This document shows positions 2,677-47,026 of a stretch of 64,000 nucleotides of DNA, piece after piece. Every line of letters starts with the position of its first letter. The stretch's first letter is position 1. Below the pieces are notes generated by a model that saw nothing but the letters and a program-made list of their open reading frames with translations, was not told the DNA's origin and did not search any database. The position numbers were made by a program, and so were the translations under genes. The stretch is from Phycisphaeraceae bacterium (GTDB lineage Bacteria; Planctomycetota; Phycisphaerae; Phycisphaerales; UBA1924), in NCBI GenBank assembly GCA_019636795.1, contig JAHBWW010000004.1, forward strand, positions 62,001 to 126,000. The letters run 5' to 3'.

Positions 2677-2712
2677 AAAAACCACAAAGCCGGCTGCTTT
2701 CGCAACCGGCTT
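2677..2712 (-). terminator. Rho-independent terminator downstream of tRNA-fMet
   Basis: An inverted repeat AAGCCGG (2687-2693) and CCGGCTT (2706-2712) with a 12-base loop; on the minus strand the stem is followed by TTTGTGGTTTTT. It sits 5 bases past the 3' end of the tRNA gene, so it very likely ends its transcript. Confidence 0.75.
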
Positions 2713-2717
2713 GGGAA

Positions 2718-2792
<75 letters not shown>

Positions 2793-2961
2793 ACAGGAGG
2801 GGAGGATAGGCTGGACTCATCTGGTGGTCAATGGATCGAAGCTCCGGAGTCGTTACGTCGAGTTGGGCTGCCTAGGGATGTGCAGCAACGGTTGGGCTTG
2901 ACGTGGGGTTTGCACTGTGGTTTTAGTGCCGTATATGGATTGACTCTGTCGTTCGACTCAG

Positions 2962-4299: not shown

Positions 4300-4339
4300 G
4301 CGACTCAAGTTCAGAACGAACCAACCAGTCGGGCGCATG

Positions 4340-4378
4340 AAAAAGCCCCGCACGGTGTGTGCGGGGCTGTGATTTTTC
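4340..4378. terminator. Bidirectional terminator between purD and the secreted-repeat gene
   Basis: A perfect 10-base stem, AGCCCCGCAC (4344-4353) with GTGCGGGGCT (4359-4368), a 5-base loop, GATTTTTC on the right and a run of A on the left. It can therefore terminate purD from the left and the converging minus-strand gene from the right. Confidence 0.88.
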
Positions 4379-4411
4379 ACGATCAACGTTGGTTGGTTTT
4401 GGAGTCAACGA

Positions 4412-5068: not shown

Positions 5069-5107
5069 GACGATTCTCCGTGCAGTTAAAACTGCGTCGA
5101 GGTGCAA

Positions 5108-6202
5108 TCAGCGTGAGAAGTTGGCGAAAGGGCTGGTCGACATGATGGTGCCGCCAGTGCTGACAACTGGCCCGATCATGTTGTTGGCCTGGTTGACGGT
5201 GGCAAAGCCATTGCCGACTGTGGCGCTGCGTGAGTGGTTGCCGATGACGAGGTTGTCGATGCCGGAGTTTTCGATCTGCACAGCGTGCGGCCCGCCGTGG
5301 CAGAGGTTTCCTTCGATCCGAGATCCGTCTTCGATGACAGCGATGCATGCTACCTGAAGGCCGGATGAGCTGATGTTGTTGTCACGAACGATGGAGCTGT
5401 GATAAACACGGATGCCGCCTGAGCCGTTGTTGGTTGAGGAGTTTCCGAGAATCTTGAGTGCTCCGGAGTTGAGTTGGCCGGTGATGCCGAAGGCAGTGTT
5501 GGCGTTGACGGTGCATCCTTCAACGTGGGAGCCGTACGCGACGGAAATCCCGGACTGCGAGCACTGGTTGGCGAAACTGCCGATGACACGCCCCTGGGTT
5601 GAAGTTACAATTCCGTTTTGTCCAGCGCTGTAGACCGTGGAGTTTTCGACAATCGAGTGGGTGCTGACGACAATGCCATTGCCGAGCGGTGCCTCGATAA
5701 AGCAGTTTGAGATGATGCTGCGCTGTCCGACATTGATCCCGTCGCCCTTGGCATTGCGAACGGTGACGTTCTCGATGCGCGCGTTGCGGCCGAGGACGAT
5801 GCCGTGGTTGCCTGATTCGCGCAGGGCTCCGTTGCGGATGGTGGTGTTGCTGAAGGCGTTTGCGTCGACACTGATAAGCGGGCGGGTGCTGGTTCCACCG
5901 CCGGCGCGTGCGATGAAGAATCCGTTCATGTCGATCGTGACATCAGGAGCCGAGATGAGAATGGCACCCGTATCGCCCGTGACAATGAGTGAGGAAGCGA
6001 GGTAGTACGATCCAGGCTGGACAATAACGAAGAAGTGCTCGCCATTGCCGGGTGTGGTTTCGTACTTGAGGGGAGTGCGTGGTTCGACTTCGACAAGGGT
6101 CTTCATGGAGGAAGCGACAGGGCCTTCGGGCGGGTCGAGCGGACCAGCCAGGGCGGGGAGTGCGAAGAGTGCGACGGCGGTGGTGAGGATCAGTTTCTTC
6201 AT
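5108..6202 (-). CDS. Secreted right-handed parallel beta-helix protein
   Basis: A 364-residue protein with a signal peptide ending ALPALAGPLDPPEG. The region SSMKTLVEVEPRTPL, then QPGSYYLASSL and APDVTIDMNGF, starts a right-handed beta-helix: short repeats such as NTTIRNGALRESGNHGIVLG, ARIENVTVRNAKGDGINVG and SIVENSTVYSAGQNGIV follow one another. Such folds occur in pectate-lyase-like and NosD-like proteins that bind or cut polysaccharides; no catalytic residues can be assigned, so a surface or carbohydrate-binding role is inferred. AGGAA lies 8 bases before the ATG. The next gene upstream (6283-7473) is a paralogue sharing the AGPLxPP and KTLVEVEPR segments. Confidence 0.85.
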   Translation of the reverse strand: MKKLILTTAVALFALPALAGPLDPPEGPVASSMKTLVEVEPRTPLKYETTPGNGEHFFVIVQPGSYYLASSLIVTGDTGAILISAPDVTIDMNGFFIARAGGGTSTRPLISVDANAFSNTTIRNGALRESGNHGIVLGRNARIENVTVRNAKGDGINVGQRSIISNCFIEAPLGNGIVVSTHSIVENSTVYSAGQNGIVTSTQGRVIGSFANQCSQSGISVAYGSHVEGCTVNANTAFGITGQLNSGALKILGNSSTNNGSGGIRVYHSSIVRDNNISSSGLQVACIAVIEDGSRIEGNLCHGGPHAVQIENSGIDNLVIGNHSRSATVGNGFATVNQANNMIGPVVSTGGTIMSTSPFANFSR

Positions 6203-6282
6203 TGTTCAATTCCTAACTATGGTGATGGCGCGTTTGTGCGTGCCAGGTTGTGAGGCTGTGAGCCGCTCGAACAGACGAGCGC

Positions 6283-7473
6283 TCAATATGTGAAATTGGC
6301 GTTGGGGTCGGATGAACCGGGTGAAGTGCCACCAGAGTTGCCGCTGATAGCACCTGCATTGGTGGCCTGCACGACAAGACAGCGGTTTCCTACGACGACA
6401 TCCCAGTTCAGCGTTGTGTTCGAGGAGACTGTGTTGCGAGTGATGAAGTTGGTGCCAGCGGTGACGCGAATGCCATAGTCGTTGTCGTTGCAGACATTCC
6501 CCTCGATTCGGCTCCTGAAACCAGAGGTGAAGATCCCGGCTCCAAGTGTGGACTGGCCATTCGAGTTGCTGACATTTTCGCGCACGGTGCAGTTTCCCAG
6601 GAAGGAGATGCCGTGTCCGCCATTGAACGTGACGCTATTGTTTTCGATCAGGCTCGATGAGTTGGCTGTGATGCCATTGAGCGAGTTGCTGCGAACGACG
6701 CAGCTGGTAATGACCGAGCCATTGAGACCAACGATTCCGTGGCCGGAGTTGTTGGTCGAAGTGCAATCGAGCACTCGGGTGCCGTCGCCAGAGGCATCAA
6801 TGCCGTTATTGCTGTTGCTGCGGGCGATTGTTCTGGAAACGATCGAACTATTGAGGACGAACACGCCCGCGACGCTATTCTGCTCGCTGATGCAATCAAA
6901 CACTTGTGAGGAATCCAATGATCTGATTCCATAACCCGCATTGAATGCTGCGCGCGAGGAACGAACGATGGAGGCTCCCGGCAGACGCATTCCATCGTTG
7001 CCGTTGTTGAGTACTGAGACGTTTTCGACTTCCCATCCTCGAGATCCGGCAGCTGTATAACCCAACCCGACGCCATTGCCGATCGATCGAATCGTCCCAT
7101 TACGAACTGTGATGTTGGAGCGAGCACCGTCACCAATGATGCCGCCGAATGATGCGGTGTGACCTCTGATGGTCATGCCATTGAGGTCGATCGTGACATC
7201 ATCGGCAGCCACTTCGATGCACAACATGCCTGCAGCGCCGAATATGTTTTCTGTCAGGTAGTACGACCCGGGTTGCGAAATGCGAAACACGGAATCGGCA
7301 TCACCTGGTGTGTTGACTGCGTTGATCGCGATTCGGGGTTCGACCTCGACGAGGGTCTTATAAGTGCTCTGGACGCTGCCCGCGGGCGGGTTCAAGGGTC
7401 CGGCGATGATCAGGCCTGCAGTCCCGGCGACTAGCGTGAGCGCAGCGATAGCGAGTTTTGCTGAATGACGCAT
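6283..7473 (-). CDS. Secreted right-handed parallel beta-helix protein (paralogue)
   Basis: This 396-residue protein has a signal peptide (MRHSAKLAIAALTLVAGTAG) followed by IAGPLNPPAGSV, YKTLVEVEPRIAI and QPGSYYLTENIF, the same N-terminal design as the neighbour at 5108-6202. The body is a beta-helix with repeats like RGWEVENVSVLNNGNDGM, CTVRENVSNSNGQ and SRIEGNVCNDNDYGI. The frame remains open far upstream, but ATG at 7473 is the start because AAGGAGA lies 6 bases before it and a signal peptide follows; the longer frame would run across the sigma-factor gene on the other strand. The two beta-helix genes are probably a tandem duplication; no ligand can be predicted. Confidence 0.87.
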   Translation of the reverse strand: MRHSAKLAIAALTLVAGTAGLIIAGPLNPPAGSVQSTYKTLVEVEPRIAINAVNTPGDADSVFRISQPGSYYLTENIFGAAGMLCIEVAADDVTIDLNGMTIRGHTASFGGIIGDGARSNITVRNGTIRSIGNGVGLGYTAAGSRGWEVENVSVLNNGNDGMRLPGASIVRSSRAAFNAGYGIRSLDSSQVFDCISEQNSVAGVFVLNSSIVSRTIARSNSNNGIDASGDGTRVLDCTSTNNSGHGIVGLNGSVITSCVVRSNSLNGITANSSSLIENNSVTFNGGHGISFLGNCTVRENVSNSNGQSTLGAGIFTSGFRSRIEGNVCNDNDYGIRVTAGTNFITRNTVSSNTTLNWDVVVGNRCLVVQATNAGAISGNSGGTSPGSSDPNANFTY

Positions 7474-16787: not shown

Positions 16788-17618
16788 ATGGCTCGGCGTG
16801 AACGAAGTCCTGGCCCGCGTTGGCGTGTGCGCCTGGTGCTGTGCGTGCTGCTGGGACTGGCGACCTCGTGGCTTGTAGCGTGGGGGCTTGCTGTTGCAGC
16901 ACGGACTCCGTGGTTTGGGCCGTGGTATCCCCTGGATCAACGAGGAGCGGCGTACATCGAGCCGCTGCTCCTTGAATACACCAGAAGTCAGAACCGTCCG
17001 ACGATCGTGACACTGTGGTTCATCACGCCTCTGAACCGTCATACCGTCTTTGGAGCCAATGCGCGGGCCCGGTACGCTGCTGAACTTCCTCCGGGTACGC
17101 CGTACCCCGACGGCCAACCGGAACTGGCCATGAGAAGTGCTTCGCAGTTTGATCAGATCGCAGCACGCTTTCATGAACTGCCGGTTGCCCGCCACATGAG
17201 CGACCATGACTTTGTGGTCATTGAGCAGTACGATTACGGCTGGCCCTTGAGAAGTGCATCACAGACGATTATTTCGCGTATGATCGACGCTCCTCCGTCG
17301 TTGGGCCAGGCACTTTCGAGCGGTGTCTTCGAAAAGCGGTGGAGCCTGACCATCCCCCTCGGTCGGTTTCATCTGCCCGGCACGACGCTGTCTGAAATTC
17401 GCCTGCCCCTGCGTCCGCTCCTGCCCGCTCTGGCGGCCAATTCGCTGTTCTATGGCCTGCTCTGGGCGCTGCCGCTGCTGGGCGTGCCGCTGCTCAAACG
17501 CTGGCGGCGCGGGCGGCGGGGCCTGTGCCTGTCGTGCGCCTACGACCTGGCTGCAACACCGGGCGATGTCTGCCCCGAGTGCGGCCAGCCGAGGCCGGGT
17601 CTGTCATCGAGGATGTGA
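16788..17618 (+). CDS. Membrane protein with C-terminal zinc-ribbon
   Basis: A 276-residue protein with an N-terminal membrane helix (VLCVLLGLATSWLVAWGLAVAA), a soluble region of about 180 residues with no recognised domain, a second membrane helix (LLPALAANSLFYGLLWALPLLGVPLL) and, after a basic stretch, CLSCAYDLAATPGDVCPECG, a CxxC...CxxC zinc ribbon frequently attached to planctomycete membrane proteins. The soluble part is therefore probably outside and the ribbon cytoplasmic. AAAGG lies 7 bases before ATG 16788. Function unknown. Its stop overlaps an alternative start of the next gene. Confidence 0.75.
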   Translation: MARRERSPGPRWRVRLVLCVLLGLATSWLVAWGLAVAARTPWFGPWYPLDQRGAAYIEPLLLEYTRSQNRPTIVTLWFITPLNRHTVFGANARARYAAELPPGTPYPDGQPELAMRSASQFDQIAARFHELPVARHMSDHDFVVIEQYDYGWPLRSASQTIISRMIDAPPSLGQALSSGVFEKRWSLTIPLGRFHLPGTTLSEIRLPLRPLLPALAANSLFYGLLWALPLLGVPLLKRWRRGRRGLCLSCAYDLAATPGDVCPECGQPRPGLSSRM

Positions 17619-17743
17619 TGTGGATCCGCCTATACTGCCGCGTTCAAGCCCCCGGGTGCGACGCCATCGCGGTGTCTGGACACATGCTCGCGCTTCCGGC
17701 ATGCACCGACATACAGATCCGACGATTGCGAGGAGTTGATCTT

Positions 17744-18202
17744 GTGTCCGTTGAAGAACCGCGGTGGTATCCCTCGAAGATCGATTGGTGGCTCGTCCCG
17801 ATTCTGTGCGTGCCGCCGGGAGCCGCGGTTGCGGTGTGCGTTACTACTGTGCTGGCGGGCTCCATCACCAGCCTGCTGGTGGGCGTTGCGGTTGTCGCGT
17901 TGGTTGCGGGGCTGTATGTTGGGCTTGTCTTTCCCATGCGTTACGGGCTCGACGAGACTCACTTGATTGTCAGACACGGCCTCTGCCGCCAGCGTATTGC
18001 GCTGGCCAAGATCGTGGAGGTGCGTCCGACGCGCAATCCCCTGAGTTCACCGGCGCTGTCGCTTGATCGTCTGCACGTCAGGTTCGGGCAGGGCGTCTTC
18101 AAGGCGGTGATGATTTCGCCCGCGGAGCGCGATTGTTTTCTGTCCGACCTGGCCGAGCAAGCCGGGCTCAACCGCGTGGGCAATGGTCTGAGCCGGACGT
18201 GA
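17744..18202 (+). CDS. Membrane protein with bacterial PH-like domain
   Basis: A 152-residue protein. Two membrane helices (WWLVPILCVPPGAAVAVCVTTVLAG and SLLVGVAVVALVAGLYVGLVF) are followed by a domain reading YGLDETHLIVRHGLCRQRIAL, IVEVRPTRNPLSSPALSLDRL and FKAVMISPAERDCFLSDL, which fits the bacterial PH (bPH_4 / former DUF1200) pattern. Function unknown; these domains probably bind protein or lipid at the membrane. GTG at 17744 is chosen because GAGGAG is 8 bases upstream; an ATG at 17618 overlapping the previous stop (TGATG) would add 42 unlikely residues. Confidence 0.72.
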   Translation: MSVEEPRWYPSKIDWWLVPILCVPPGAAVAVCVTTVLAGSITSLLVGVAVVALVAGLYVGLVFPMRYGLDETHLIVRHGLCRQRIALAKIVEVRPTRNPLSSPALSLDRLHVRFGQGVFKAVMISPAERDCFLSDLAEQAGLNRVGNGLSRT

Positions 18203-18921
18203 TCGGGCCCGGCGGCATCCGGGTTCGTGCTGCGCGTGCTGCTCAAGAGGTTGTTGTGGACTTCGATGGTCTCACTCTCCTGCTTCCTCTCTTGTGCGTT
18301 GCGTTGGTCGCGGCGCGGCCCGGACCTGATCGGCACACACGGCCCGACTGTGCAGCGCGCACCGGAAGCCTTGGTTGGGGTGGCGGCGGATCGAACGGGC
18401 GATCCACCGGTCCGGGTTTGGGTCCGCTCAGCTCGAGAGTGTGCTCTTGAAGCGGCCGTTTGTGCTCCTGCAACGCGCGCTGCAATGACTGCAACGCGCG
18501 CTGCAACGATTGAAGCGCGCGTTTGTGTTCTTGAAACGCGTGCTGCAACTCTTGCAACGCGCGTTTGTGCTCCTGAAGCGCGCGTTTGTGTTCCTGCAAC
18601 GGCCGTTTGTGCTCCTGCAGCGCGCGCTGCAACGATTCAAACGCGCGTTTGTGTTCTTGAAACGCGCGCTGCAACTCTTGAAACGCGCGTTTGTGTTCCT
18701 GCAACGCGCGTTTGTACGACTGAAACGGGCGAAGAAAGTGCCTGATTGTGGGGAAGTGCCCCCTCTGGCGCTGTCGCCAGTGCGGTTGTGGCTCCTCAGT
18801 GCCTTGCCCCGCACCCCGATGCGGAGACATCAGGCCGTGCAGACCCGCGCCCGCTTCGCGGACTTGCACGACCGCTCATGGCCGCCTCCGACACTTCACT
18901 GTTCTTCCGGGCGAGCGACGT
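18203..18921. other. Gene-free stretch carrying a 21-bp tandem array
   Basis: About 720 bases between the PH-like protein and the FG-GAP protein gene. Frames on both strands are open through the central array because its unit is 21 bases (7 codons), but none has a ribosome binding site, signal peptide or recognisable domain, so no gene is called. The flanks show nothing else recognisable. Confidence 0.6.
18442..18735. repeat. 21-bp tandem array, 14 units (array 1)
   Basis: Fourteen consecutive units of exactly 21 bases, imperfect but in perfect register. Each unit carries a GCGCG core and ends in TG(A/C)A(A/G)C; the variable middle takes mainly two forms, TTTGTGYTCYTG (form A) and CTGCAAYKMYTG (form B), in an irregular order. 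Twenty-one bases is two turns of B-DNA, so the cores lie on one face of the helix. Reading the minus strand gives heptads of the type QEHKRAL/QELQRAF, the plus strand KRAFVFL; both may be by-products of the unit length. Confidence 0.9.
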
Positions 18922-20481
18922 TCAGCCGCCCGGCGCTCCTTCCGGACATCCAGCCGAGAACTGGCCCAGAAACGAGATGATATCGAAAATGTCGAGTATG
19001 CCATCGCCATTGAAATCTCCGGGACAGGAGTTGCTGACGGCGAGAATGGCCATGGCGCTGGTCGCGCTTCCGCCCGGCCCGCTCGCCACGGCGTAGTACT
19101 GGCCGACGTGCTCGAAATCGGCGGGGTCGATGGTGAGCGTTGGGGTGTGTGCGCCGCTGACTGGGCCGCCATCAGACAGTGGCGCGTTGCCGAAGTACCA
19201 CTGCACGGTGACCGGCGGCGTCCCGCCCGCGACCTGCACCTGCAACTGCGCACCGGTCTTGCGCTTGACCGCGAGCGACTGCGGCTGAGCGGTGATGCTC
19301 GGACGCAGCAGGCACTGGTTCAGGAACACACGCAGCTCGTTGCTGGTTTCCGAGGCGACGATCAGGTCCAGGTCGCCGTCGTTGTCAAGATCGGCCAGTG
19401 CGACCGCGGACGGCCCGCCGGGCACGCTGAAGGTGGACGGCGGCGCGAACGTGCCGTCGCCGACACCGAGCCAGACCGAGACGAGCCCGGTGTTGCGATG
19501 CCCGAACACGAGGTCGATCTTCCCGTCACCGTTGATGTCAGCAAGGCCTCTGCGGCGCGCGGCACCTTGCGTGGGCATCTCCACGAAGGTCACGGGCTGG
19601 AAGGTTGCGTCACCATTGCCCAGAGCGACCATAAAGGTGAACGAGTTGTCGTTGTTGGCCACGATATCGAGCTTTCCGTCATTGTTGAGATCGACAAGAT
19701 CGATGTGGCGTGTCTGCGTCAGCAGTGAAACGGTGAGAACATACGGATCGAACGTGCCGTTCCCGATGCCAAGGTGCAGATGGACGAACGGAGCGCCACT
19801 CGTGGTGACGAGCATGTCGAGCACCCCGTCGCCGTTGACATCACCCAGGGCCAGTGACTCGGCACTCTGATGGTTGAACACGGTCTGGAGCGGCATGAAT
19901 CCGCCCGCGGGATTGTTCAGATAGACAGAGAGGACGACCGTGCCGGTGTTGCCGGCCTGCGCGACGACGATGTCGGGCAGGCCGTCGCCGTTGAGGTCGC
20001 CGGCGCGGGCGACGCGGGGGCTTTCGGCGGTGGGCAGGACGACCATCCCGCCCAGGGTGCCGTCGGGCTGGCCGTAGAAGACCCGGACTCCGTGATTCCC
20101 CGTCATCGACACCGGAATGGCCAGATCATCGCGTCCATCGCCGTTGAAATCGGCGACGACCGGGTTGTTCGGCGAGCCGCCGAGGGCGATGTCCTGGCGC
20201 GGCGCGAAGGTTCCGTCGCCAAGCCCGCGCCGCACGCTGACGGAGGTCGCACTGAGATTGGGCACCACGATGTCGAGCACGCCATCGTTGTCAAAATCGC
20301 CGGTCACGAGATTCCAAGGGAAGGCCGCGGTCGAGAGTGGAGTGAGCGCCGGGCCGAACGGCTGCCCGCTCCCGCAGTTTTGCGCCGCGGAGGGCGCTAC
20401 CGCCGCGCACGCTGCCAATCCCAGAGCGCACAATCCCCGCACCATCCGCAGACGGCACCCGAACAACACATCCTTCATCAT
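18922..20481 (-). CDS. Secreted FG-GAP/VCBS repeat protein with Ig-like and dockerin-like domains
   Basis: A 519-residue exported protein. After the signal peptide (LCALGLAACAAVAPSAAQ) come about seven FG-GAP/VCBS-type calcium-binding repeats (e.g. VTGDFDNDGVLDIVVPN, VVADFNGDGRDDLAIP, LADINGDGKIDLVFG) that form a beta-propeller. An immunoglobulin-like domain follows (PSITAQPQSLAVKRKTGA up to YYAVASGPGG), then a single EF-hand-like tail (CPGDFNGDGILDIFDIISFL) ending FSAGCPEGAPGG, a shortened version of the GC-type dockerin tail seen elsewhere in the window. AGGAG lies 5 bases before ATG 20481; the reading frame upstream of it is not credible. Probably cell-surface or extracellular adhesion (inference). 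Confidence 0.88.
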   Translation of the reverse strand: MMKDVLFGCRLRMVRGLCALGLAACAAVAPSAAQNCGSGQPFGPALTPLSTAAFPWNLVTGDFDNDGVLDIVVPNLSATSVSVRRGLGDGTFAPRQDIALGGSPNNPVVADFNGDGRDDLAIPVSMTGNHGVRVFYGQPDGTLGGMVVLPTAESPRVARAGDLNGDGLPDIVVAQAGNTGTVVLSVYLNNPAGGFMPLQTVFNHQSAESLALGDVNGDGVLDMLVTTSGAPFVHLHLGIGNGTFDPYVLTVSLLTQTRHIDLVDLNNDGKLDIVANNDNSFTFMVALGNGDATFQPVTFVEMPTQGAARRRGLADINGDGKIDLVFGHRNTGLVSVWLGVGDGTFAPPSTFSVPGGPSAVALADLDNDGDLDLIVASETSNELRVFLNQCLLRPSITAQPQSLAVKRKTGAQLQVQVAGGTPPVTVQWYFGNAPLSDGGPVSGAHTPTLTIDPADFEHVGQYYAVASGPGGSATSAMAILAVSNSCPGDFNGDGILDIFDIISFLGQFSAGCPEGAPGG

Positions 20482-24941: not shown

Positions 24942-25592
24942 TCAGCGGCGGCGGCGCATCGCGACCAGCCCGCCCAGGGCCAGCACACCGACCGAGCCGG
25001 GCGCGGGCACCAGACGGAAATCATCGACATGGATCCACGTCGGATTGGGTCCGGTGCCGTTGGCGACGGTCAGGTACGCCGCGTCGCTGCCGGCGATGAA
25101 CGTGTGCTCGAAGTATTGCCAGCTGCTGGGCGAGATCGGACCGGTCGAAAAGACCTGGGTGCCAAAGTCGGTGGCCGAGCTCGAGATCCCGATGAGCAGC
25201 GGCTCGCGTCCCGGGTCAAAGTCCATGACGGTCTGGGCCCAGAACGAGACCGTGTACTGACGGCCCGCGACGATCGAGTTCGACAGGTCGAACGAGAACG
25301 CATCGACCCCGCCGTCGGCGCGATAGTGCAGCGCGACCTTGTAGTCTCCGTCCACCGGCGCGAGGCCGAAGAAGTTGGAGGTATGCATGATGTCCAGTTC
25401 CTGCGAGGTGCCGAACGCGGTGGCATTGGCCATGATGGTGCTGAAGTCTGCGTTGACCAGGTTGTACAGCGTTCCTCCGGCTGTGTTGTTCTCGAAACTG
25501 CCGTTGAGGATCATGTTGCTCGGCCCGGCACCCGCGGCTGCGGCAACGCCGCCAAGGACGATGAGACTGACAAGACGCTTGTGTGTTGACAT
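24942..25592 (-). CDS. Secreted protein with PEP-CTERM-type sorting signal (second)
   Basis: A 216-residue exported protein: signal peptide MSTHKRLVSLIVLGGVAAAAGAG, then a beta-sandwich-like body (NMILNGSFENNTAGGT, HYRADGGVDAFSFDLS, YTVSFWAQTVMDF, TWIHVDDFRL) that resembles the carbohydrate-binding-like or DUF642 type of jelly-roll, and the tail LVPAPGSVGVLALGGLVAMRRRR. The tail is nearly identical to that of the protein at 11873-12604, so both would be sorted by the same exosortase. ATG 25592 is preceded by AAGGAG at 9 bases. The frame is open for another 768 bases upstream only because it runs through the 21-bp array. Confidence 0.85.
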   Translation of the reverse strand: MSTHKRLVSLIVLGGVAAAAGAGPSNMILNGSFENNTAGGTLYNLVNADFSTIMANATAFGTSQELDIMHTSNFFGLAPVDGDYKVALHYRADGGVDAFSFDLSNSIVAGRQYTVSFWAQTVMDFDPGREPLLIGISSSATDFGTQVFSTGPISPSSWQYFEHTFIAGSDAAYLTVANGTGPNPTWIHVDDFRLVPAPGSVGVLALGGLVAMRRRR

Positions 25593-26469
25593 GTTGTATT
25601 GCTCCTTGCTGGTTTCAATGGCAGCGATCTGCGGTGTCGGCTCGTTGATCACGGCTGCCGGCGCGATCGACAACGGTCGGTGGCTGACCGCTCCTGCGAG
25701 TCTGACGGCCAGCCGGCTCGAACTCCTCAGACGCGACTGAGGCACCTCCCACGGTTCCAAGCGCAACTCTCTGACCCGACTCACACTCCCGTCACGTAAA
25801 ATTGCAAAGTCCGGCTTTCGTCCGGCACTGTGTTTCGATGTGTCCCGCCCCGGGCGGCCGCGGGCGAGCGGCATGCAGTCGCACGACTCGATCAACCCGG
25901 CGGCGGGCACCCACCCCGCGCAGCAACCGATCCGGCCAGGGCCGCAACGCCGACGAAGCCTCCGAGTGACCCGCCCGGGGGCGTGCCTGCTGCGCCGAAC
26001 AGCTTCTGCGGCGCGCCGATCAACGATGTTGACGCGCCGATAGATCGTTTTGACGCGCCGATACACGATGTTGACGCGCCGAATTGTCGTGTCAACGCGC
26101 CGATAGATGATGTTGACGCGCCGAATTGTCGTGTCAACGCGCCGATAGATGATGTTGACGCGCCGAATTGTCGTGTTGACGCGCCGAATTGTCGTGTCGG
26201 CGCGACGATAAATGATCTTGACGCGCCGAATTGTCGTGTCAACGCGCGGCGCAATGACAATTCGGCGCGCCATATGGGACCTTCGGACCGTCACAACCGC
26301 GTTATCGAGGGTGCGAAGGCGGTTGATCCCCCGATAAAAGGGGCTGGTGGCCCTCCGCACCGAGCAATCCGCCTGCCCAGTGTGGTGAACGACTCATAAT
26401 GGCGGTCAGGATTTTGATAAGATCGCTTCGAAATCCCAACCACGCATTTCGGCTGCAAGGAGTTCTTTG
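25593..26469. other. Gene-free stretch carrying the second 21-bp array
   Basis: About 880 bases upstream of both the PEP-CTERM gene and the divergent DUF4041 gene. The parts outside the array show no gene or clear promoter; a GATAAGAT sequence near 26416 could be a -10 element for the DUF4041 gene. Long frames on both strands across the array have no ribosome binding site or domain and are not called. Confidence 0.55.
25992..26272. repeat. 21-bp tandem array, 13 units plus inverted end (array 2)
   Basis: Thirteen units of 21 bases in register (25992-26264), most of them beginning GCGCCGA and many ending TTGAC or TCAAC. The middle takes mainly two forms, ATTGTCGTG and TAGATGATG, which alternate in the central part. 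At the right end the sequence GACAATTCGGCGC (26256-26268) is the exact inverse of the left part of a unit. Unit length, GCGC core and the AAC/GAC-GCGC junction are the same as in array 1 at 18442-18735, although the rest of the sequence differs. Confidence 0.9.
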
Positions 26470-27078
26470 ATGGTCATTCTACTTTTCTTCCTGTTCATGT
26501 TCGCGCTGGGCGGAGCGTGCTATGCGGGTGTCATGTGGTTTCTGGAGCACAAGCGAGTGATGTCTCTCGAAGCCGAGGTTCATGAGGCTCGCAGTGCGGC
26601 CTCCGCTGCGGCAACCAAGGCGGCAGCTCTACTGGAAGCGGCCGAATCTGAGGCCCGCATCCTCACCACCGGGGCGCAGATGGAGGCTGACAGCACTGTG
26701 ACCAACGCCAAGGTGGAGGCTGATGCCATGACTGCCGCAGCCCGCACCAAGGCCAAAGAGCAACTCGCAGAGGCTCAGATGGCTCTATCGGCCGCGGCGA
26801 TGCGTTCAGAGCAAATCATCGCCGATGCCGAAAAGCATGCCGAGAGGATCGCGGGAAAGGCCTATGAGGCGGTGCGCGATGCAGATCGCTTTGAGCAGAC
26901 TGCACGCGCCATGCGCAACATCGTCGAAGGTTATGGCGATGCGTACCTGGCACCGGCCTCGGGGCTTCTCGACGAACTCGCCGAGGAGTTCAGCCACAAG
27001 GACGCAGGGCGGCACCTGAAAATGGCCAGAGAACACTCAGCCGCGATGGTCGCGGGGGGGGCATGCGGCGACCTGTGA
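26470..27078 (+). CDS. DUF4041/GIY-YIG protein, N-terminal part (frameshifted)
   Basis: This is the first part of a gene interrupted by a frameshift. The 202 residues begin with a membrane helix (MVILLFFLFMFALGGACYAGVMWFL) and continue as an alanine/glutamate-rich coiled coil (LEAEVHEARSAASAAATKAA onwards) into the start of the DUF4041 domain. The frame ends at TGA 27076-27078 shortly after a run of eight G (27054-27061). With seven G it would read on into the frame of the following feature through GGHAATCDYAESSRAKGAA. AAGGAG lies 8 bases before ATG 26470. Homologues are single proteins of about 520 residues, membrane-anchored with a nuclease-like end. Either a real mutation, a phase-variable tract or a sequencing error explains the shift. 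Confidence 0.75.
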   Translation: MVILLFFLFMFALGGACYAGVMWFLEHKRVMSLEAEVHEARSAASAAATKAAALLEAAESEARILTTGAQMEADSTVTNAKVEADAMTAAARTKAKEQLAEAQMALSAAAMRSEQIIADAEKHAERIAGKAYEAVRDADRFEQTARAMRNIVEGYGDAYLAPASGLLDELAEEFSHKDAGRHLKMAREHSAAMVAGGACGDL

Positions 27079-28051
27079 CTATGCCGAGTCGAGCCGGGCC
27101 AAGGGGGCTGCACGCTTCGTTCTCGACGCGTTCAACGGCAAGGTTGATTCGATCCTGTCGCGCGTGCGACACGACAACGTCGGCACGCTCGAAGCCGAGA
27201 TCCGCGATGCATTCACGATTGTCAATTTCGGCGGAAAACCATTCCGCGACGCGCGGATCACCGAGGCCTACCTCGCATCACGCCTCGAAGAACTGCGGTG
27301 GGCCGTCATCGCATTCGAACTGCGACAGCGCGAGCAGGAGGAGCAGCGGCAGATTCGTGAGCGTATCCGTGAGGAAGAAAAGGCGCGGCGCGAGTATGAG
27401 AAGGCGATCAGGCAGGCCGCCAAGGAAGAAGAGGCTCTGCGCAAGGCTATGGCCGAAGCTGAAGCACGCATCGCTGCTGCGACCAGCGAGCAACGGGCCG
27501 CCTTCGAGGCGCAACTGGCCGAACTGGCGGGACGGCTTGCCGAGGCCGAAGAGAAGAACCAGCGGGCGTTGTCGATGGCCCAGCAGACCAGGCGCGGGCA
27601 TGTCTACATCATTTCGAATGTCGGTTCGTTCGGCGAGGATGTCTACAAGATCGGATTGACGCGGCGTCTGGATCCGCTTGATCGGGTGCGTGAACTGGGC
27701 GATGCCAGCGTGCCCTTCGAGTTCGATGTTCATGCCGTGATCTTTTCCGAAGATGCCCCTGCACTCGAGACCCGGCTGCACAAGCATTTTCTCTTGAATC
27801 AGATCAACAAGGTCAATCATCGCAAGGAGTTCTTCAGGGCGCCTCTGACCGACATTCGTCGCGAGATTGATGTGCTGGGTGTGGAGGCCAAATGGACCAT
27901 GCTCGCCGAGGCGCGGCAGTACCGCGAATCGCTCGCCATCGAGGAAAGAATCGCCGCCGACCCGGCTGCACGCGAGGCGTGGCTGAACCGTCAGTTGATC
28001 CTCGAATCCGAGTCCGAAGGAGATGCAGTCGAACTCCTTGAAGAGGTTTGA
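27062..28051 (+). CDS. DUF4041/GIY-YIG protein, C-terminal part (frameshifted)
   Basis: This continues the gene at 26470 in the +1 frame. It carries the most conserved part of DUF4041 (FVLDAFNGKVDSILSRVRHDN, EIRDAFTIVNFGGKPFRDARI, LASRLEELRWAVIAFELRQ), a long charged coiled coil, and a T5orf172/MUG113-type GIY-YIG nuclease domain: GHVYIISN, DVYKIGLTRRLDPLDRVREL and the Glu in ALETRLHKHF. The catalytic Tyr, Arg and Glu all appear present. The first ATG in this frame is at 27164, without a ribosome binding site, so the part is unlikely to be made alone. The downstream neighbours are a methyltransferase-nuclease fusion and an OLD-like ATPase, which suggests DNA processing or defence. Confidence 0.75.
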   Translation, partial: HAATCDYAESSRAKGAARFVLDAFNGKVDSILSRVRHDNVGTLEAEIRDAFTIVNFGGKPFRDARITEAYLASRLEELRWAVIAFELRQREQEEQRQIRERIREEEKARREYEKAIRQAAKEEEALRKAMAEAEARIAAATSEQRAAFEAQLAELAGRLAEAEEKNQRALSMAQQTRRGHVYIISNVGSFGEDVYKIGLTRRLDPLDRVRELGDASVPFEFDVHAVIFSEDAPALETRLHKHFLLNQINKVNHRKEFFRAPLTDIRREIDVLGVEAKWTMLAEARQYRESLAIEERIAADPAAREAWLNRQLILESESEGDAVELLEEV

Positions 28052-28249
28052 TCGCGTGCGTTGGTGCGGGCCGCACGATCCGGGGGCAGGGTGCCGTGGT
28101 CATGGCTCTGCATGGCCACGACGAGGCGTCGATTCCCGCTCCTGTCACCTTGAGTTCACGCCAGTCCAGCGGCGCGACACATCGCTCTTTCAGTGCGCTC
28201 GGGTTTCCGATGGGCCTGTGGCCCCGGCGCGAGAACCGGGTTGTTCCGT

Positions 28250-28255
28250 TATACT
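28250..28255 (+). promoter_or_regulatory. Candidate -10 element of the methyltransferase gene
   Basis: TATACT lies 8 bases before the ATG at 28264. If this is the -10 box, transcription would start at or next to the A of ATG and the mRNA would be leaderless; there is also no Shine-Dalgarno sequence before this ATG. A good -35 match at the expected place was not found, so this is tentative. Confidence 0.35.
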
Positions 28256-28263
28256 TTCCGCCG

Positions 28264-29883
28264 ATGGCCAAACGCACACGACAGAAGCAACCACCCCCGC
28301 CGCCCGCGCCCTCCTCGCCGCCAGATCCCGCGAAGGTAGTCAGACGCACGCCCGCCGCCCCTGCCGAACCACCCGCGCGAAGCCGTCCATCGTCCCTCGT
28401 CGACACCCGCGTCGTCTGGTGTGGCGATTGCCTCGAACAACTCGCCAACCTGCCCGACAAATGCGTCGACCTCGTCTACATCGACCCGCCCTTCAACTCC
28501 AACCGCAACTACGAGGTCTTCTGGGGCGAGACCAAGGAAAAGCGGGCCTTCGAAGACCGCCACGCCAGCACGCAGGCCTACATCGAGTACATGCGACCGC
28601 GCTGCGTGCAACTCGCCCGCGTCCTCAAGGACACCGGCAGCTTTTATTACCACTGCGACTGGCATGCCAGCCACTACGTCAAGGTCATGCTCGACCAGAT
28701 TCTCGGCGAGAACTCATTTCGGAACGAAATCATTTGGCGTCGGACTACAGCCAAGTCACAGACCTTCCACTCGTTTCCCAATAATCACGACTCGCTCTTC
28801 TTTTATGTGGGTGGGGAGCAGCACACGTTCCATCGCCAGTTTAAGCCCCACAGCCAAGCACGCATTGACCAGCACTACAGCAACATCGAAGAAGGCACCG
28901 GACGCCGCTACTCCCTTGACAACCTGACAGCGGAAGGCATTCGAAACGGTAGATCAGGCCTTCCGTTCAGAGGCATTGACATCGGCGCTAAGGGGAATCA
29001 CTGGAAGTTCACAGTCGACAAGCTTGATGCGATGGATAAGGAGGGGCGGATCTATTGGCCAAAGAAGGCTGGCGGAATGCCACGACTGAAGCGTTACCTC
29101 GATGAACAAGAAGGCGTCCTTGTCGATACGGTTTGGGAGGACATCCCGCCGATCAACTCGCAGGCGAAGGAGTCCCTTGGCTACCCGACCCAAAAGCCCA
29201 TCGCCTTGCTCGATAGAATCGTGAAGTCTTCCAGCAACCCCAACGACATCGTCCTCGACGCCTTCTGCGGCTGCGGCACGGCGCTCGTCGCTGCTCAGAA
29301 CCTCAGCCGCCAGTGGATCGGGATCGACATCTCGCCCACCGCCTGCCGGGTCATGGCCAAGCGGCTCCGCGATGTCTGCGGCATGAAGGAGTCTGAGCCT
29401 TTGTGGAAAGCTCGCCGCGCTGATGCTTTCGTTGTCCGCGATCTGCCGTGGACGATCGAGAAGTTAAAGAAACTCCCGCCCTTCGAGTTCGAGAACTGGG
29501 CCGTCATCGCGCTGGGCGGCATTCCCAACAAGACGCAGGTCGGCGACATGGGCATCGACGGCCGCATCTACCCCGTCGGCTCGCGGCCGCAGGATGAAGC
29601 CAAGGGCACGAAAAACAAACATGGCGTGACCGGCGAGACGATGTTCATGGACGACTGGTTCCCGGTGCAGGTCAAGCAGACCGACAAGGTGGGCCGCCCG
29701 GACATCGATCAGTTCGAAGCCGTCATGGCCCGCGAGGACCGCACCCGCGGCTTCTTCGTCGCTTTCGGTTACAGTGCGGACGCCCAGCGCGAAGCCGCCG
29801 CGTTCTACAAGAAGACGGGGCGCATCATCAAGTTGATCTCGGTCCAGGAGATTCTGGACGAGGAACATGTGGGGAAGATGTAG
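28264..29883 (+). CDS. DNA methyltransferase fused to Mrr-type nuclease domain
   Basis: A 539-residue fusion. After a proline-rich N-terminus comes a beta-class DNA N4/N6 methyltransferase, in the order motif IV (DLVYIDPPFNSNRNYEVFW, about 70) then motif I (VLDAFCGCGTALVAAQ, about 330), with GYPTQKPIALLDRIV between them. Residues 405-535 look like an Mrr-type restriction nuclease: FENWAVIALGG, GDMGIDGRIY and FPVQVKQTDKVGRPDIDQFE supply the D...QxK active-site pattern. One protein could thus methylate and cleave, i.e. a single-chain restriction-modification enzyme; whether cleavage needs ATP or partners is unknown. It lies between the GIY-YIG gene and the OLD-like ATPase gene on the same strand. 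Confidence 0.88.
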   Translation: MAKRTRQKQPPPPPAPSSPPDPAKVVRRTPAAPAEPPARSRPSSLVDTRVVWCGDCLEQLANLPDKCVDLVYIDPPFNSNRNYEVFWGETKEKRAFEDRHASTQAYIEYMRPRCVQLARVLKDTGSFYYHCDWHASHYVKVMLDQILGENSFRNEIIWRRTTAKSQTFHSFPNNHDSLFFYVGGEQHTFHRQFKPHSQARIDQHYSNIEEGTGRRYSLDNLTAEGIRNGRSGLPFRGIDIGAKGNHWKFTVDKLDAMDKEGRIYWPKKAGGMPRLKRYLDEQEGVLVDTVWEDIPPINSQAKESLGYPTQKPIALLDRIVKSSSNPNDIVLDAFCGCGTALVAAQNLSRQWIGIDISPTACRVMAKRLRDVCGMKESEPLWKARRADAFVVRDLPWTIEKLKKLPPFEFENWAVIALGGIPNKTQVGDMGIDGRIYPVGSRPQDEAKGTKNKHGVTGETMFMDDWFPVQVKQTDKVGRPDIDQFEAVMAREDRTRGFFVAFGYSADAQREAAAFYKKTGRIIKLISVQEILDEEHVGKM

Positions 29884-29970
29884 TGTCCAGAAGAGAGGCC
29901 AGCCCGAAAACCTCGGGGGGCCCCGTTGCGATTCATAGGCACGGCAGTGGCCGCCGTGCGGAGGCCTAGT

Positions 29971-31893
29971 ATGCAGCTTCGTCGTGTTCACATCAGAAAC
30001 TTTCGGTCCGTGGAAAACGCGACAGTGGAGTTCACTCCGCGATTCCGAACCCTTGTCGGAAAGAACGAGGCGGGGAAGTCCAACATTCTTGAGGCGTTGC
30101 GCCACTTGGACGAAAGCCATATTCTCACCAAAGACGATCTCCGCGAAGTTCGTCAAGATGAAACACCGTACACCGAAGCATTCATTCGCTTCGTCTTTAC
30201 GCTAGACCAATCAGACACCGTCGCGATTGCGGAGCGGCTGCAATCTCTAGTACACGGTCGCAAGCTCTCAGACGTCGCCATGCTCGATGGGAGCACGGAC
30301 CTATCACTCGCCGAGATCGTGAGACGAATTCGAGAGGGGTTGTTTCAGGCGATCCTCCTCTCGCGCACTAAGCAAGCTACGCATTGGAAGCTCTCAGACA
30401 GCTTAGCGATGAACTGTGAGCTTTTTGCGCTCGTTGACGGCGCGAAAGCGCATGTCCTTATCGAGAACGCGCAGGTGTCCGCCATTCCGGGAAGTCTGTA
30501 TGACATCAGTGTTGTTCCGGAAGCGGCACGAACCTCATTCCGCACCGCGACTTTCTTGGACTTGAGTAAGATGATAAGCAAAGCTGTGACTGAGCGCGTA
30601 TCTGGTTCGTTACCAGATGTCGTTTTCTGGCAGTACTCGGATGATATGGTGTTACCTGGCAAGGTGGACATAGCGGAATTCGCAGCCGATCCGCAGTCGT
30701 GTGAGCCCTTGCGACAGATGTTCACCCTTGCGGGTGAAGAAGACCCCGCCGAGGCGATAGATGCCAGCAGGGCTCGAAGCAATGGCTTTCGGAATCTGTT
30801 GAATCGCGTTGCGGCTCAGTCTACCAAACACATCCGGGAGGTGTGGCCGGAATACCAGGGAATCGAGCTGTCGCTTGCGGAAAACGGAAGCTCGATTGAG
30901 GCGACGATTCGGGATGTCCACAATGTGTACGACCTCTCCCGCCGAAGCGACGGGTTCAAACGATTCGTCACGTTTTTGCTAATGATTTCCGCATCCGTGC
31001 GCAATGAAGAGATGGACGGAGCGCTTCTGCTTATCGACGACCCGGATCTGGGCCTGCACCCGTCGGGCGTGCGGTACCTTCGAGACGAGCTCATGAAGAT
31101 TGCGGAGACGAGCTATGTTGTGTGCGCGAGCCACTCTGTGTTCATGATAGACCGGGAGCACATTGAGCGCCATCTATTGGTGAAGAAAGCGGATGAGACA
31201 ACGACGGTATCTGAGGCGAATGGGGACAACATTGTTGATGAAGAGATCCTATACAATGCCCTCGGAGCTTCTGTTTTCGAAATTCTTCGGGCGAGGAATC
31301 TGGTCTTTGAGGGCCGTCGCGATCGCGTCCTGTTTCAAACCGCTCTCTCCCGCGTACCCAAGGAGTTCGCTGCGGCGAAGGCACTAAAGGAATTTGGAAC
31401 ATGCTATGTCCGTGGAATCAAAGATGTTCCGAGAGTCACCCCACTCTTGGACTTGGCGGGAAGGAGATACCTCGTTGTCTCAGACGGCGACGGCCCCGCC
31501 CGAGAAGGGCAACGATCTTTTAAGGGAGATGGCGCCTGGGTTCGATACGACGAGTTGGGTGACGGAACGGAATGGCAGACCGCCGAAGATTTCATCGTGT
31601 CTGCCGTCTTGGTTGCGGCGTCTATGCGAGTTGCAGCAGAGGATGTGCCTGCGGCAGATGCCGCGATGCTCGCTATTCCAGAGGGCCCCGGCAAACTATC
31701 TGCGATCGATAAGTGGCTCCAACTTGTAGAGAAAGATAGGGGAAAGCGGAAGGCGGTTCTGAGTCGAATCAAGGAAGAGGTATTCCAGTCACTGAAGACA
31801 TCTCACATTTCCCAAGAGTACTACGGCGTGTTGGTGCAGCTCGTGAATGTGGCCGAGGGCACGTCTACAAATCACCAACCGCCCACTAGTTAA
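29971..31893 (+). CDS. OLD-like AAA ATPase with TOPRIM-type nuclease domain
   Basis: A 640-residue protein. The ABC/SMC-like ATPase starts LRRVHIRNFRSVENATVEF with Walker A GKNEAGKSN (residues 30-38), a signature-like LSRRSDGFKRFV, and Walker B ALLLIDDPDLGLHP (an unusual DDPD where DEPE is common). Then CASHSVFMID is the H-loop region. The C-terminal third fits a TOPRIM domain: NLVFEGRRDRVLF with the acidic Glu, and YLVVSDGDGPA with the DxD pair. This layout is that of OLD-family nucleases, many of which act in phage defence. GGAGG lies 8 bases before ATG 29971. Codon use seems less GC-rich than in the neighbours, which suggests recent transfer; the statement is by eye. Confidence 0.85.
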   Translation: MQLRRVHIRNFRSVENATVEFTPRFRTLVGKNEAGKSNILEALRHLDESHILTKDDLREVRQDETPYTEAFIRFVFTLDQSDTVAIAERLQSLVHGRKLSDVAMLDGSTDLSLAEIVRRIREGLFQAILLSRTKQATHWKLSDSLAMNCELFALVDGAKAHVLIENAQVSAIPGSLYDISVVPEAARTSFRTATFLDLSKMISKAVTERVSGSLPDVVFWQYSDDMVLPGKVDIAEFAADPQSCEPLRQMFTLAGEEDPAEAIDASRARSNGFRNLLNRVAAQSTKHIREVWPEYQGIELSLAENGSSIEATIRDVHNVYDLSRRSDGFKRFVTFLLMISASVRNEEMDGALLLIDDPDLGLHPSGVRYLRDELMKIAETSYVVCASHSVFMIDREHIERHLLVKKADETTTVSEANGDNIVDEEILYNALGASVFEILRARNLVFEGRRDRVLFQTALSRVPKEFAAAKALKEFGTCYVRGIKDVPRVTPLLDLAGRRYLVVSDGDGPAREGQRSFKGDGAWVRYDELGDGTEWQTAEDFIVSAVLVAASMRVAAEDVPAADAAMLAIPEGPGKLSAIDKWLQLVEKDRGKRKAVLSRIKEEVFQSLKTSHISQEYYGVLVQLVNVAEGTSTNHQPPTS

Positions 31894-43584: not shown

Positions 43585-46500
43585 TCAGTCGCAACTCGCA
43601 GCGTACAGGTTGAGGAACGCCTGAATGTCGAAGAAATCGATGATGCTATCGCCATTGATATCAGCGTCGGCATGTCGATTCGTATAGAGATTCAGGAACA
43701 TCTGGACATCAAAGAAATCGAGTATTCCGTCCGAGTTCAAGTCGACCGGACACACAGAACTGCACGCCCGTGACCACACACGCACGTGATCGATCGCAGC
43801 CTCGGTGACGGAATCGTTATTCACATCACTGATGATAAAGCGGATGCGCACTGCATTGCCCGTGGGGATGTAGTCCCGGACTGCTATGGTGTGGTCACGC
43901 CAGCCAAAGGTTGATCGCAGTGTTGCGACGGACATCCAGTTGTTGCTGGCTCCTGGAGCAATTTCGACTTCGAGTACATCTTCGCCCGCAACTCCCGCAT
44001 CATCACAAAACAACCAGTACGCAAATGTGATCTGAGGGTCATCGATGCCGGCAATGCTGATCTGTGGCGAGCGGAGTGTCGTCGGGCCGCCATCCACATC
44101 GCTGTTGCCCGGTGCAGGATCAGTCATCCAGCATGTTCCGCTGCCATCAGCGTCGATAATCGGGTCGCCGCGATGCCCGCCTCCGACCAGAGTGCCCCAG
44201 CCCCACGCACCGCCAGTTAACCCTGCGCTATTGGTCACGACCCAACCCGCGGGCGTTGTGAACTGCTCGACGGTGTAGACAGTCTGAGGCTCGACAGTGA
44301 TCTCAAAACCACTCAGCGGCGCGAGTTCGGGCCAGCGCTGTACTTGTCCGCTTGTCGTGAGGCCCTCGATGCTGAACCGAGTCTTGGTTCCGCACATTGC
44401 TGGGGGCAGCGTAACCTCAAACGCATTGCCTCCCAGGTGCGTCGCTGCCAGCGAAAGAGGCGTTGGACCGCCAGTTTCGACAAACGCGCGAACAGTTTGC
44501 GGGTCGATGCCCGTCGATGTTCCTAATAACTGAAACGGAACAACGAGGCTCCGGTATGGATCGCGCGTTTCTGGAAGACCGCTCGTGCCGAACGAGAGCC
44601 CGATCGCATCAGGCATCTTGATTCCGCCGGAAACGACCAGCGAGTAAGGCACGGAGATTCCGTCGTTCTGGCCGCTCATATCAATCTGCACATCAATGCC
44701 GATCACTTCAATCACCCACGATCCGGGCATCGGATTTGCAATGATGACCTGCTCGACGGTATTGATCGGATCTGATTGCCCGCCCGCAACCGAAGTTGTG
44801 CTGTCGAGCAGCCCGTGGTTGCCCCAATAGATGCTGCCATCAGGTGCGGTGACGCGGAGCGAAATGTCGTTGATCGTGTGCGACAGAGCGCCTGGGAACC
44901 CGGGGGGATCGAAGTACACGAGAGTAGCCTGGAACTTCGGTTCGCCCGGAGCAACATCGGCGTGATACATACGAACCGCGCCAGTAGCGACTTGTTCCGA
45001 TTGATTGATCACGATCATGCGATGCCGCAGGTCATAGAGATCCTGAACGTGAGGCATGCCCCAGCCCTGGCGATACCGCCCGAGATCATCAGCCACATGC
45101 GAAAAATCCCACTGTCTCGCAGTATTGATGAGTAGAGCCTTGATTGTCGTAGATGCCGGGCGCTCATCGAACACATCGCCACCGTTGACAGGGTTGCCGA
45201 AAATCCCATCGGCCCACATGCGGTACACAAGCCCACCAAGGCCGGCGACAATGGGCGTTGAGGCGCTCGTCCCGCCAAACTCTTCGTACGCAGCGTTCCC
45301 GCTACCCGAACTTGTGAAGACGCGATCATTCGCGTGGGCTAGATCCGGCTTGATGCGGCCATCAATCGCGGGGCCGGTGCTTGCAGATTGTGCCCAGCGA
45401 TCATCGAGCATCACAGCATTGTCGTAGTGATTGATCGCGCCGATCGACAGCACGTTCTTGGACCACGCCTCAGGCCGAGAATCTGCGTTACCCGAATTGC
45501 TCTGCGATTGCAGGATCAGCAGGTTCGTCGCGATCGCGATATCGTCGAGTTCTGCCGAGAGAGTCGTGTAGTGTCGTGTGCGATCTCCGCCCCAGCTGTT
45601 GCTCTGAAACACAGCGCGGAACGGCGACTGAACAAGAGCCAGAGCGTGGGCCGCCCGATCTGGGACCGCCGTGAATCGTGAGAAGATACCCATCGCGCCA
45701 GACAGAACGCCGCGCGTGGCGGGATTGCCTTGGCCCGACCCGAAGATGATGCCAAAGACAGGCGTGCCGTGACTGAAGTCTGATCCTGCCGTTGTACGCA
45801 GTATCGGTGGATTGGCAGCAAACTCCTGATGGTTGACGCGGATCCCGCTGTCCATCACTTCACCAGTAACACCCGTTCCGTCAAGCCCGATCAGACTTTC
45901 CAATGAGTTGACGCCAGAAATATGGCGAATGAGATTCAAATCGGTCTCGGGTGCTGACCAGCGGTCGATCCATACAACGGCATGGTGTGCTGCGAGTTCG
46001 AGCAAGTGCTGCGCAGGAATCTCGGCAACGATTCTGCGCGAGGCAGTAGGGCGATGTTCAGCCACCAGGCCAATGGCAAGTCCGTGCTGGAGTATGGCAT
46101 CGATCGTGGCAGGGGAGGAATCCCACGCCAAGATGTTGACCCGCACCGTGGCGGGTTCGGGGCCAGTGGCAAGGGTGAGCAGATCTGGCGCAATTCGCAA
46201 GTCTGCACCGAGGTCCGTCCAGGCTGACGCGTTGATTGTGGAGAGATCGATGGCTTCAGCTATCGGACCTGCACGGACGACCCAGGTTCGCGAGTCAATA
46301 CTCGGGCCCAGGTCAAGACCCTTGCTGGAAAGCTGGGCCATGAGATCGCTTGTAATGGGGGAGTGAAAGCGGATGGCCAGAATTGTGGAGTCCGTGATCA
46401 CCTGTATTGGCATTTCGGAGAGAGCTCGCGAACCAGGCAGCAGGGCGACATGCTGAATACCGGATTCAGGACCTGCCGGGGCGGACATCGTTGTATCAAT

Positions 46501-46608
46501 AGGTGGTTCTGGGCTGCGAATTTTGCCATATGCAGGCGCAACCACACCAGAACAGGTCAGTATCGCAGCAGCGATTGATGTGAGCGCAGAGACGCAACGA
46601 CGCGACAT
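43585..46608 (-). CDS. Secreted subtilisin-like (S8) peptidase with GC-type dockerin-like tail
   Basis: A 1007-residue exported protease. The signal peptide is MSRRCVSALTSIAAAILTCSG. The catalytic triad is seen as Asp in GEVMDSGIRVNHQEF, His in DFSHGTPVFGIIFG and Ser in FGGTSASTPIVAGLGG; the Asn of the oxyanion hole is in QSNSGNADSRP. After the peptidase domain come a beta-rich region (P-domain-like, IANPMPGSWVIEVIG) and an adhesion-like region, and at the end two EF-hand loops (DLNSDGILDFFDV, DINGDSIIDFFDI) with the ending YAASCD. Processing of a propeptide (residues about 30-200) is likely. A 12-base palindrome AAGGTGCACCTT lies between the ribosome binding site and ATG 46608. Confidence 0.92.
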   Translation of the reverse strand: MSRRCVSALTSIAAAILTCSGVVAPAYGKIRSPEPPIDTTMSAPAGPESGIQHVALLPGSRALSEMPIQVITDSTILAIRFHSPITSDLMAQLSSKGLDLGPSIDSRTWVVRAGPIAEAIDLSTINASAWTDLGADLRIAPDLLTLATGPEPATVRVNILAWDSSPATIDAILQHGLAIGLVAEHRPTASRRIVAEIPAQHLLELAAHHAVVWIDRWSAPETDLNLIRHISGVNSLESLIGLDGTGVTGEVMDSGIRVNHQEFAANPPILRTTAGSDFSHGTPVFGIIFGSGQGNPATRGVLSGAMGIFSRFTAVPDRAAHALALVQSPFRAVFQSNSWGGDRTRHYTTLSAELDDIAIATNLLILQSQSNSGNADSRPEAWSKNVLSIGAINHYDNAVMLDDRWAQSASTGPAIDGRIKPDLAHANDRVFTSSGSGNAAYEEFGGTSASTPIVAGLGGLVYRMWADGIFGNPVNGGDVFDERPASTTIKALLINTARQWDFSHVADDLGRYRQGWGMPHVQDLYDLRHRMIVINQSEQVATGAVRMYHADVAPGEPKFQATLVYFDPPGFPGALSHTINDISLRVTAPDGSIYWGNHGLLDSTTSVAGGQSDPINTVEQVIIANPMPGSWVIEVIGIDVQIDMSGQNDGISVPYSLVVSGGIKMPDAIGLSFGTSGLPETRDPYRSLVVPFQLLGTSTGIDPQTVRAFVETGGPTPLSLAATHLGGNAFEVTLPPAMCGTKTRFSIEGLTTSGQVQRWPELAPLSGFEITVEPQTVYTVEQFTTPAGWVVTNSAGLTGGAWGWGTLVGGGHRGDPIIDADGSGTCWMTDPAPGNSDVDGGPTTLRSPQISIAGIDDPQITFAYWLFCDDAGVAGEDVLEVEIAPGASNNWMSVATLRSTFGWRDHTIAVRDYIPTGNAVRIRFIISDVNNDSVTEAAIDHVRVWSRACSSVCPVDLNSDGILDFFDVQMFLNLYTNRHADADINGDSIIDFFDIQAFLNLYAASCD

Positions 46609-47026
46609 GAAGGTGCACCTTTGAGATTCGGGAACGCCAGTGGAGAGTGAGCGTACCCAAACTGCGAGTCAAACGCGAGAGGATTTGATGAGTTTTATGA
46701 TGAATCAGATTATGCTGACTGGGCATTCGGGAAGGATTCGGATGAGGTTTGAAACTCGGACCTGCAGTCTGGTCGTACGAGTGGGGGCATGTGAAAAGGA
46801 CGTGAATTTGGCTAGTCCCATGCGGCGTGCGGTGGATTGCAGACTACACTCATCCTGAGGAGCATCATCGGGTGGGTTCAAGGATCGGATCCGAGTCAAG
46901 CCCGATAATCGAAAGCAGCGTTGCACACGGGTGGGCGGATCGCGCAGGCGACGTCGCAGGGGATCTCTGCCTGCCCAGAGTCATGCCAGCAAAACTGGCG
47001 CGTTGACAATAGAGGAGTGGATCAAC
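46609..47026. other. Divergent intergenic region between two secreted-protein genes
   Basis: About 420 bases between the divergent starts of the subtilisin gene and the gene at 47027. It must contain both promoters; TTGACAAT at about 47003 lies too close to the right-hand start to be its -35 element. Frames in it are short and show no domain. Confidence 0.5.

Follow-up and report, generated by a model that had tools for sequence, protein, structure and literature searches.

Bacterial intergenic tandem repeats are normally treated as locus-specific accidents, and several described systems invite comparison with the arrays reported here. Plasmid and phage iterons are tandem initiator sites of ∼17–22 bp that lie about two helical turns apart and sometimes carry a dyad, and in phased A-tract curved DNA the helical phasing extends over 100–300 bp. 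CRISPR arrays share a regular intergenic spacing with the arrays described below, but the latter consist of contiguous 21-mers with recurring forms, show no partition into repeat and spacer, and generally have no adjacent cas genes. Bacterial minisatellites, or VNTR satellites, are likewise short intergenic tandem repeats, some of them dispersed as families, and our arrays fit their description as head-to-tail units of 10–100 bp; the unit length of minisatellites, however, is specific to the locus, whereas nearly all long intergenic arrays here have period 21. Among 119 bacteria, most species had few satellites, and transposed non-coding families were rare (Subirana and Messeguer 2019, PMC6749651); compared with those satellites, the present arrays differ in having a single period throughout, many unrelated sequences, and positions conserved between species. 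REP and BIME elements (PMC3733652) are, like these arrays, intergenic, palindromic, and lineage-specific, but REPs are conserved in sequence and do not form exact 21-bp tandem arrays.

The window, a stretch of 64,000 nucleotides from a Phycisphaeraceae bacterium, corresponds to positions 62001–126000 of contig C4 in a 3.49-Mb genome (G000). For one protein of the window, the closest named matches come from Planctomycetota and Phycisphaerales MAGs, and the bacterium is accordingly termed Phycisphaerales-like. The array at 25991–26272 (hereafter the window array) and its surroundings comprise the following features.

18440–18731, no strand assigned: second 21-bp array of the window, with a palindromic CGCGCG core (TRF and sequence).
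24942–25589, minus strand: left neighbor, a secreted protein with a weak choice-of-anchor C/CBM_4_9 match, a signal peptide, and an ATG at 25589 with a Shine-Dalgarno sequence.
25991–26242, plus strand: 12 direct 21-bp units, the first degenerate, with a CGCGCC core (sequence, repeat search, and TRF).
∼26243–26272, minus strand: terminal inverted unit, pairing with the last direct unit (26222–26242) as a hairpin or palindrome with a 13-bp stem.
26240–26336, plus strand: conserved right flank, common to copies at C1:726281–726377 (86%) and C4:219083–219178 (75%) of the same genome.
26470–27078, plus strand: right neighbor, a membrane-anchored coiled-coil protein with weak matches only, divergent to the gene that starts at 25589.

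The window array thus lies in an 880-bp gap that separates divergent genes (starts at 25589, minus, and 26470, plus). An open minus-strand frame (24942–26360) spans the array, but the Shine-Dalgarno start and signal peptide are at 25589 instead. Direct reading and the repeat search agree that the start-to-start distance is exactly 21 throughout. A first-pass annotation had described here thirteen 21-base units in two forms, an exact 13-base inverse at the right end, and a similar array 7.5 kb away. All of this was confirmed, the count of thirteen being right when the inverted unit is included, and the similar array is that at 18440–18731. The two unit forms, CGCGCCGAATTGTCGTGTCAA and CGCGCCGATAGATGATGTTGA, plus variants, alternate and give rise to 42- and 63-bp harmonics (TRF, period 21, scores up to 245). 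The 13-base inverse is GACAATTCGGCGC versus GCGCCGAATTGTC, within a longer inverse arm of 17 nt (94%; 26219–26235/26256–26272), and the 13-bp-stem palindrome formed by the last direct and inverted units, CGCGCCGAATTGT...ACAATTCGGCGCG, closes the array. Five GCGC at step 21 occur 18 times in G000, and at steps 22 and 24 there are no matches. The regularity of the window array is far beyond chance.

The first-pass annotation had also proposed a period search for further arrays, and many were found. The genomes compared comprised one per species, and no congener of G000 was among them. Unbiased scans covered ∼1.95 Mb from eight related genomes and counted intergenic tandem arrays no shorter than 84 bp: 20 of the ∼26 arrays (21 with G061:1751254) had period 21, typically with 6–15 units, and ∼5 had other periods. 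TRF without a preset core assigned period 21 to 9 of the 19 repeat clusters in 443 kb of contig C4 and to 7 of the 13 intergenic ones. By the same program, intergenic repeats had period 21 in 8 of 10 cases in G023, where units are CCGG/GGATC-like, and in 8 of 12 cases in G061, and the scan of G015 gave zero intergenic period-21 repeats. Further 21-bp arrays were present in G010 and in G057, which belongs to another family of the order. In a whole-genome control, GCGC repeated five times at step 21 was found in 18 of 61 relatives (249 forward matches summed; 81 in G057 and 45 in G023), compared with 2 of 61 at step 22 (7 matches) and 2 of 61 at step 24 (4 matches). Outside the order, step-21 matches elsewhere in the phylum look on inspection like heptad-coding repeats, and genus g40 was dropped as a comparison because its matches were mostly chance-like or coding-like. 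Among intergenic period-21 repeats, a group of short ones stands beside a broad peak at 7–14 units, the longer arrays peaking there instead of declining steadily in number, whereas genic ones mostly have ∼2 units. A literature search of partial coverage returned no account of 21-bp intergenic arrays in Planctomycetota.

The proposal that a GCGC core is part of a general plan did not hold. The array at C4:150956, with units such as AGAAGATCGCTCTTCTG, contains no GCGC, and the cores in genus g24 are different ones, so that GCGC belongs to the dialect of G000. The first-pass annotation itself had named 21-bp arrays with unrelated cores, if just as frequent, as what would make the shared plan accidental; as regards the core, such arrays do refute it.

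Arrays occupy convergent, divergent, and tandem gaps alike; that at 18440–18731, for example, lies between the convergent genes 17579–18202 (+) and 18922–20481 (−). On the question whether preferred sites exist, there is an excess in convergent gaps (7/20 versus 66/501 intergenic regions), although the numbers are small and divergent and tandem gaps are also used. The genes flanking the loci examined share no common family (transporters, FG-GAP, radical SAM, kinase, and others), and pairing of a regulator with an operator at the adjacent gene was rejected because the neighbors lack a shared family. The exact 21-bp step corresponds to the two-helical-turn spacing of iterons, but in contrast to iterons the arrays occupy many chromosomal loci, have locus-specific sequences, and adjoin no initiator gene at the loci examined.

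Within arrays, the step is kept while the bases vary. In 41 arrays, the register is exact for 339 of the 341 internal units, a count that array delineation favors by selecting in-register units, and 18.6% of bases differ from the consensus of their own array. Array edges do break register, as with the 17-bp steps at G061 2189k. In genus g24, homologues of the same divergent genes flank arrays in G023 (145595) and G063 (L303:1816–2059), and single-gene orthologues have an upstream array in G062 (L304:1475–1731) and on another G063 contig (L305:2191–2495). These four arrays have step 21, 11–15 units, and differing sequences, with an ATCYCGGAT-like motif kept. At a second locus, the arrays G023 309071 and G061 2189k align gap-free over 98 bp (86%), lag 21 is the top periodicity in the orthologous G063 gap, and the array is absent from the congener G065. 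A further pair of regions, G023 C1 and G061 1.68–2.02 Mb, proved non-syntenic (25 reciprocal best hits, 41% median identity), and their arrays were excluded as orthologues. That arrays are kept at the same spots in related species suggests that the spacing matters. The earlier proposal of selection for spacing is supported in that unrelated sequences keep the 21-bp step across genomes and the order, and congeners at the same locus keep the step and change the sequence in part or completely.

Sharing of recurrent 6-mers was 0.196 within G000 (a value that includes copied arrays), 0.067 within g24, and 0.021 between lineages. The higher sharing inside lineages points to a lineage dialect: ACGCG/CGCGC/GTCAA in G000 and CCGG/GGATC-type units in g24. 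The shared plan of the first-pass annotation was this G000 dialect. Arrays of one genome can also have unrelated sequences, as in G010, which is awkward for a single sequence-specific protein.

Two turns of B-DNA take up 21 bp, so that an exact 21-bp step would present the same helix face in every unit. The simplest account of the fixed step, the variable sequence, the intergenic position, and the persistence is that the step itself is used. We therefore tentatively place the window array in a class that spans the lineage: non-coding intergenic arrays of 6–15 units with an exact 21-bp step, which may act in cis as helically phased DNA sites for a putative protein partner; we regard this as a plausible reading, though still short of a probable one. 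Selection would hold the step, and the units would be phased duplex-DNA sites, whose sequence could drift by concerted turnover inside a lineage-specific dialect. The candidate reader would be a protein that binds or wraps DNA and oligomerises, probably as a dimer, with a possible role in chromosome organisation or in insulation of adjacent genes.

The strongest counter-reading is that the arrays are non-functional or selfish minisatellites, produced by a lineage-specific mutational preference for 21 bp (slippage, unequal exchange, or hairpin-mediated template switching), homogenised in concert, and occasionally copied. This is a serious possibility, and copying, hybrid arrays, and inverted end units agree well with it. 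In G000, which was read in sampled stretches, exact or near-exact units of the window array occur at C1:726k and C4:219k, and weaker ones at C4:427k. The first two of these arrays are homologous to the window array in units, inverted end unit, and ∼95 bp of right flank, and the stem of the terminal hairpin is identical in the three copies, with the loop deviating in one. Therefore, the window array was dispersed by copying. A search of a contig database with its exact unit pattern gave no match. The array at C3:613770 is a hybrid, with left units of the 18440–18731 type and right units of the 25991–26272 type, and the two arrays of the window are therefore not unrelated inventions. The first-pass annotation had favored a shared plan rather than common descent by copying; for the window array, the diverged copies with their flank and the hybrid speak against this.

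In addition to the copies and the hybrid, the 42-, 63-, and 126-bp higher-order harmonics, the terminal inverted units of some arrays, which suggest foldback, and the sequence turnover at the same locus are in keeping with a minisatellite origin. A mutational origin must, however, account for a single exact step despite very different sequences, for the missing indels within arrays, for the peak at 7–14 units, and for the same inter-gene position kept across diverged species. We lean slightly toward function over the mutational alternative because of the positional persistence and the lack of register shifts; neither is proven.

Tests of the type of constraint bear on what in the arrays could be read. 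Dyad symmetry is frequent: it exceeded column-permuted controls in 13 of 34 arrays (p < 0.05; Fisher, 5e-16), a result inflated because the set was partly picked by a palindromic pattern, and 5 of 6 unselected G023 arrays passed the same test. The window array gave p = 0.067 against column-permuted units, and some of the 34 arrays are without a dyad. The excess of self-complementarity does not differ between the strands (mean z, −1.7 and −1.9; sd of the asymmetry, 1.07; strand-specific nulls) and therefore points to a property of duplex DNA and not of RNA.

Transcribed hairpin arrays that act as RNA, whether as terminators, in protection of mRNA ends, or as small RNAs, would be in accord with the excess in convergent gaps and with the finding that, in 28 of 42 arrays, at least one strand folds better than after column permutation. 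We nevertheless consider this improbable because both strands show the folding excess equally, G-U pairs show no strand bias, and some arrays sit between divergent genes; in addition, covariation beyond the consensus is absent in most arrays, in which within-column shuffles were not exceeded, and Rfam gave no match at the arrays of the window. The proposal that the 21 bp are seven codons of a coiled-coil repeat, in proteins that were mis-called or left unannotated, draws on the heptad-like look of genic period-21 repeats in these genomes and the phylum, on an open frame in some phase of most arrays, and on the array at G010:C6:119169, which is probably coding, but it is very improbable and already largely refuted, because variation shows no codon-phase bias in 17 of 17 arrays (permutation p 0.1–0.95), genic repeats mostly have ∼2 copies against 7–15 in long intergenic arrays, no conserved frame or start was seen, and a 21-bp repeat is expected to have open frames by chance.

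Helical phasing by itself is expected to raise the curvature of most 21-bp repeats above that of shuffled DNA. Calculated with roll and twist values that are reportedly those of Olson et al. 1998, the curvature of the arrays was above that of base-shuffled DNA but not above that of column-permuted 21-bp arrays (combined p = 0.125), and selection for bending beyond phasing is not supported. The arrays thus share helical phasing with phased A-tract DNA but have no A-tract basis, and GC/AT segregation within units is weak.

Returning to phased duplex-DNA sites, a broader proposal is that these arrays are a new class of Phycisphaerales element, sequence-agnostic and, by extrapolation, present at ∼50 per genome; its conserved information would be the step, read by a putative DNA-wrapping or polymerising protein. 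We consider this proposal possible but rather unlikely. A class that keeps one exact helical step at many loci and in several genera, despite unrelated sequences, would give access at the sequence level to chromosome organisation in a phylum that has been little studied, and it makes it possible to ask directly whether function can come from spacing alone, sequence aside.

Several other features of the window and its genome were recorded. In the window, what looks like a defence cassette spans 28048–31893: a fusion of an N6/N4 DNA methylase with an Mrr-type nuclease domain, and after it an AAA/OLD-like ATPase; a second DNA methyltransferase, of the type II/III kind, is at 51479–53047, and two divergent genes at 43585–49141 encode GC-type dockerin-anchored proteins. 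Hairpins of the GTGGCACG/CCATGGC type occur as dispersed short intergenic repeats that array flanks have in common (the flanks of L039 and the right flanks of L033, L035, and L037), and are probably a separate REP-like family. Elsewhere on contig C4, a 2.9-kb block with a 66-bp period (134426–137301; L083:8426–11301) is possibly a large CRISPR array. Locus L035 (C3:540000–555000) encodes at 2330–7390 a Cas12b of 1686 aa (NCBIfam NF033949, 578 bits), which is unusually long for a profile of 1253 positions; a block with a 70–71-bp period at 1038–1877 looks like its CRISPR array, and the region upstream of the cas12b start holds a 21-bp array.
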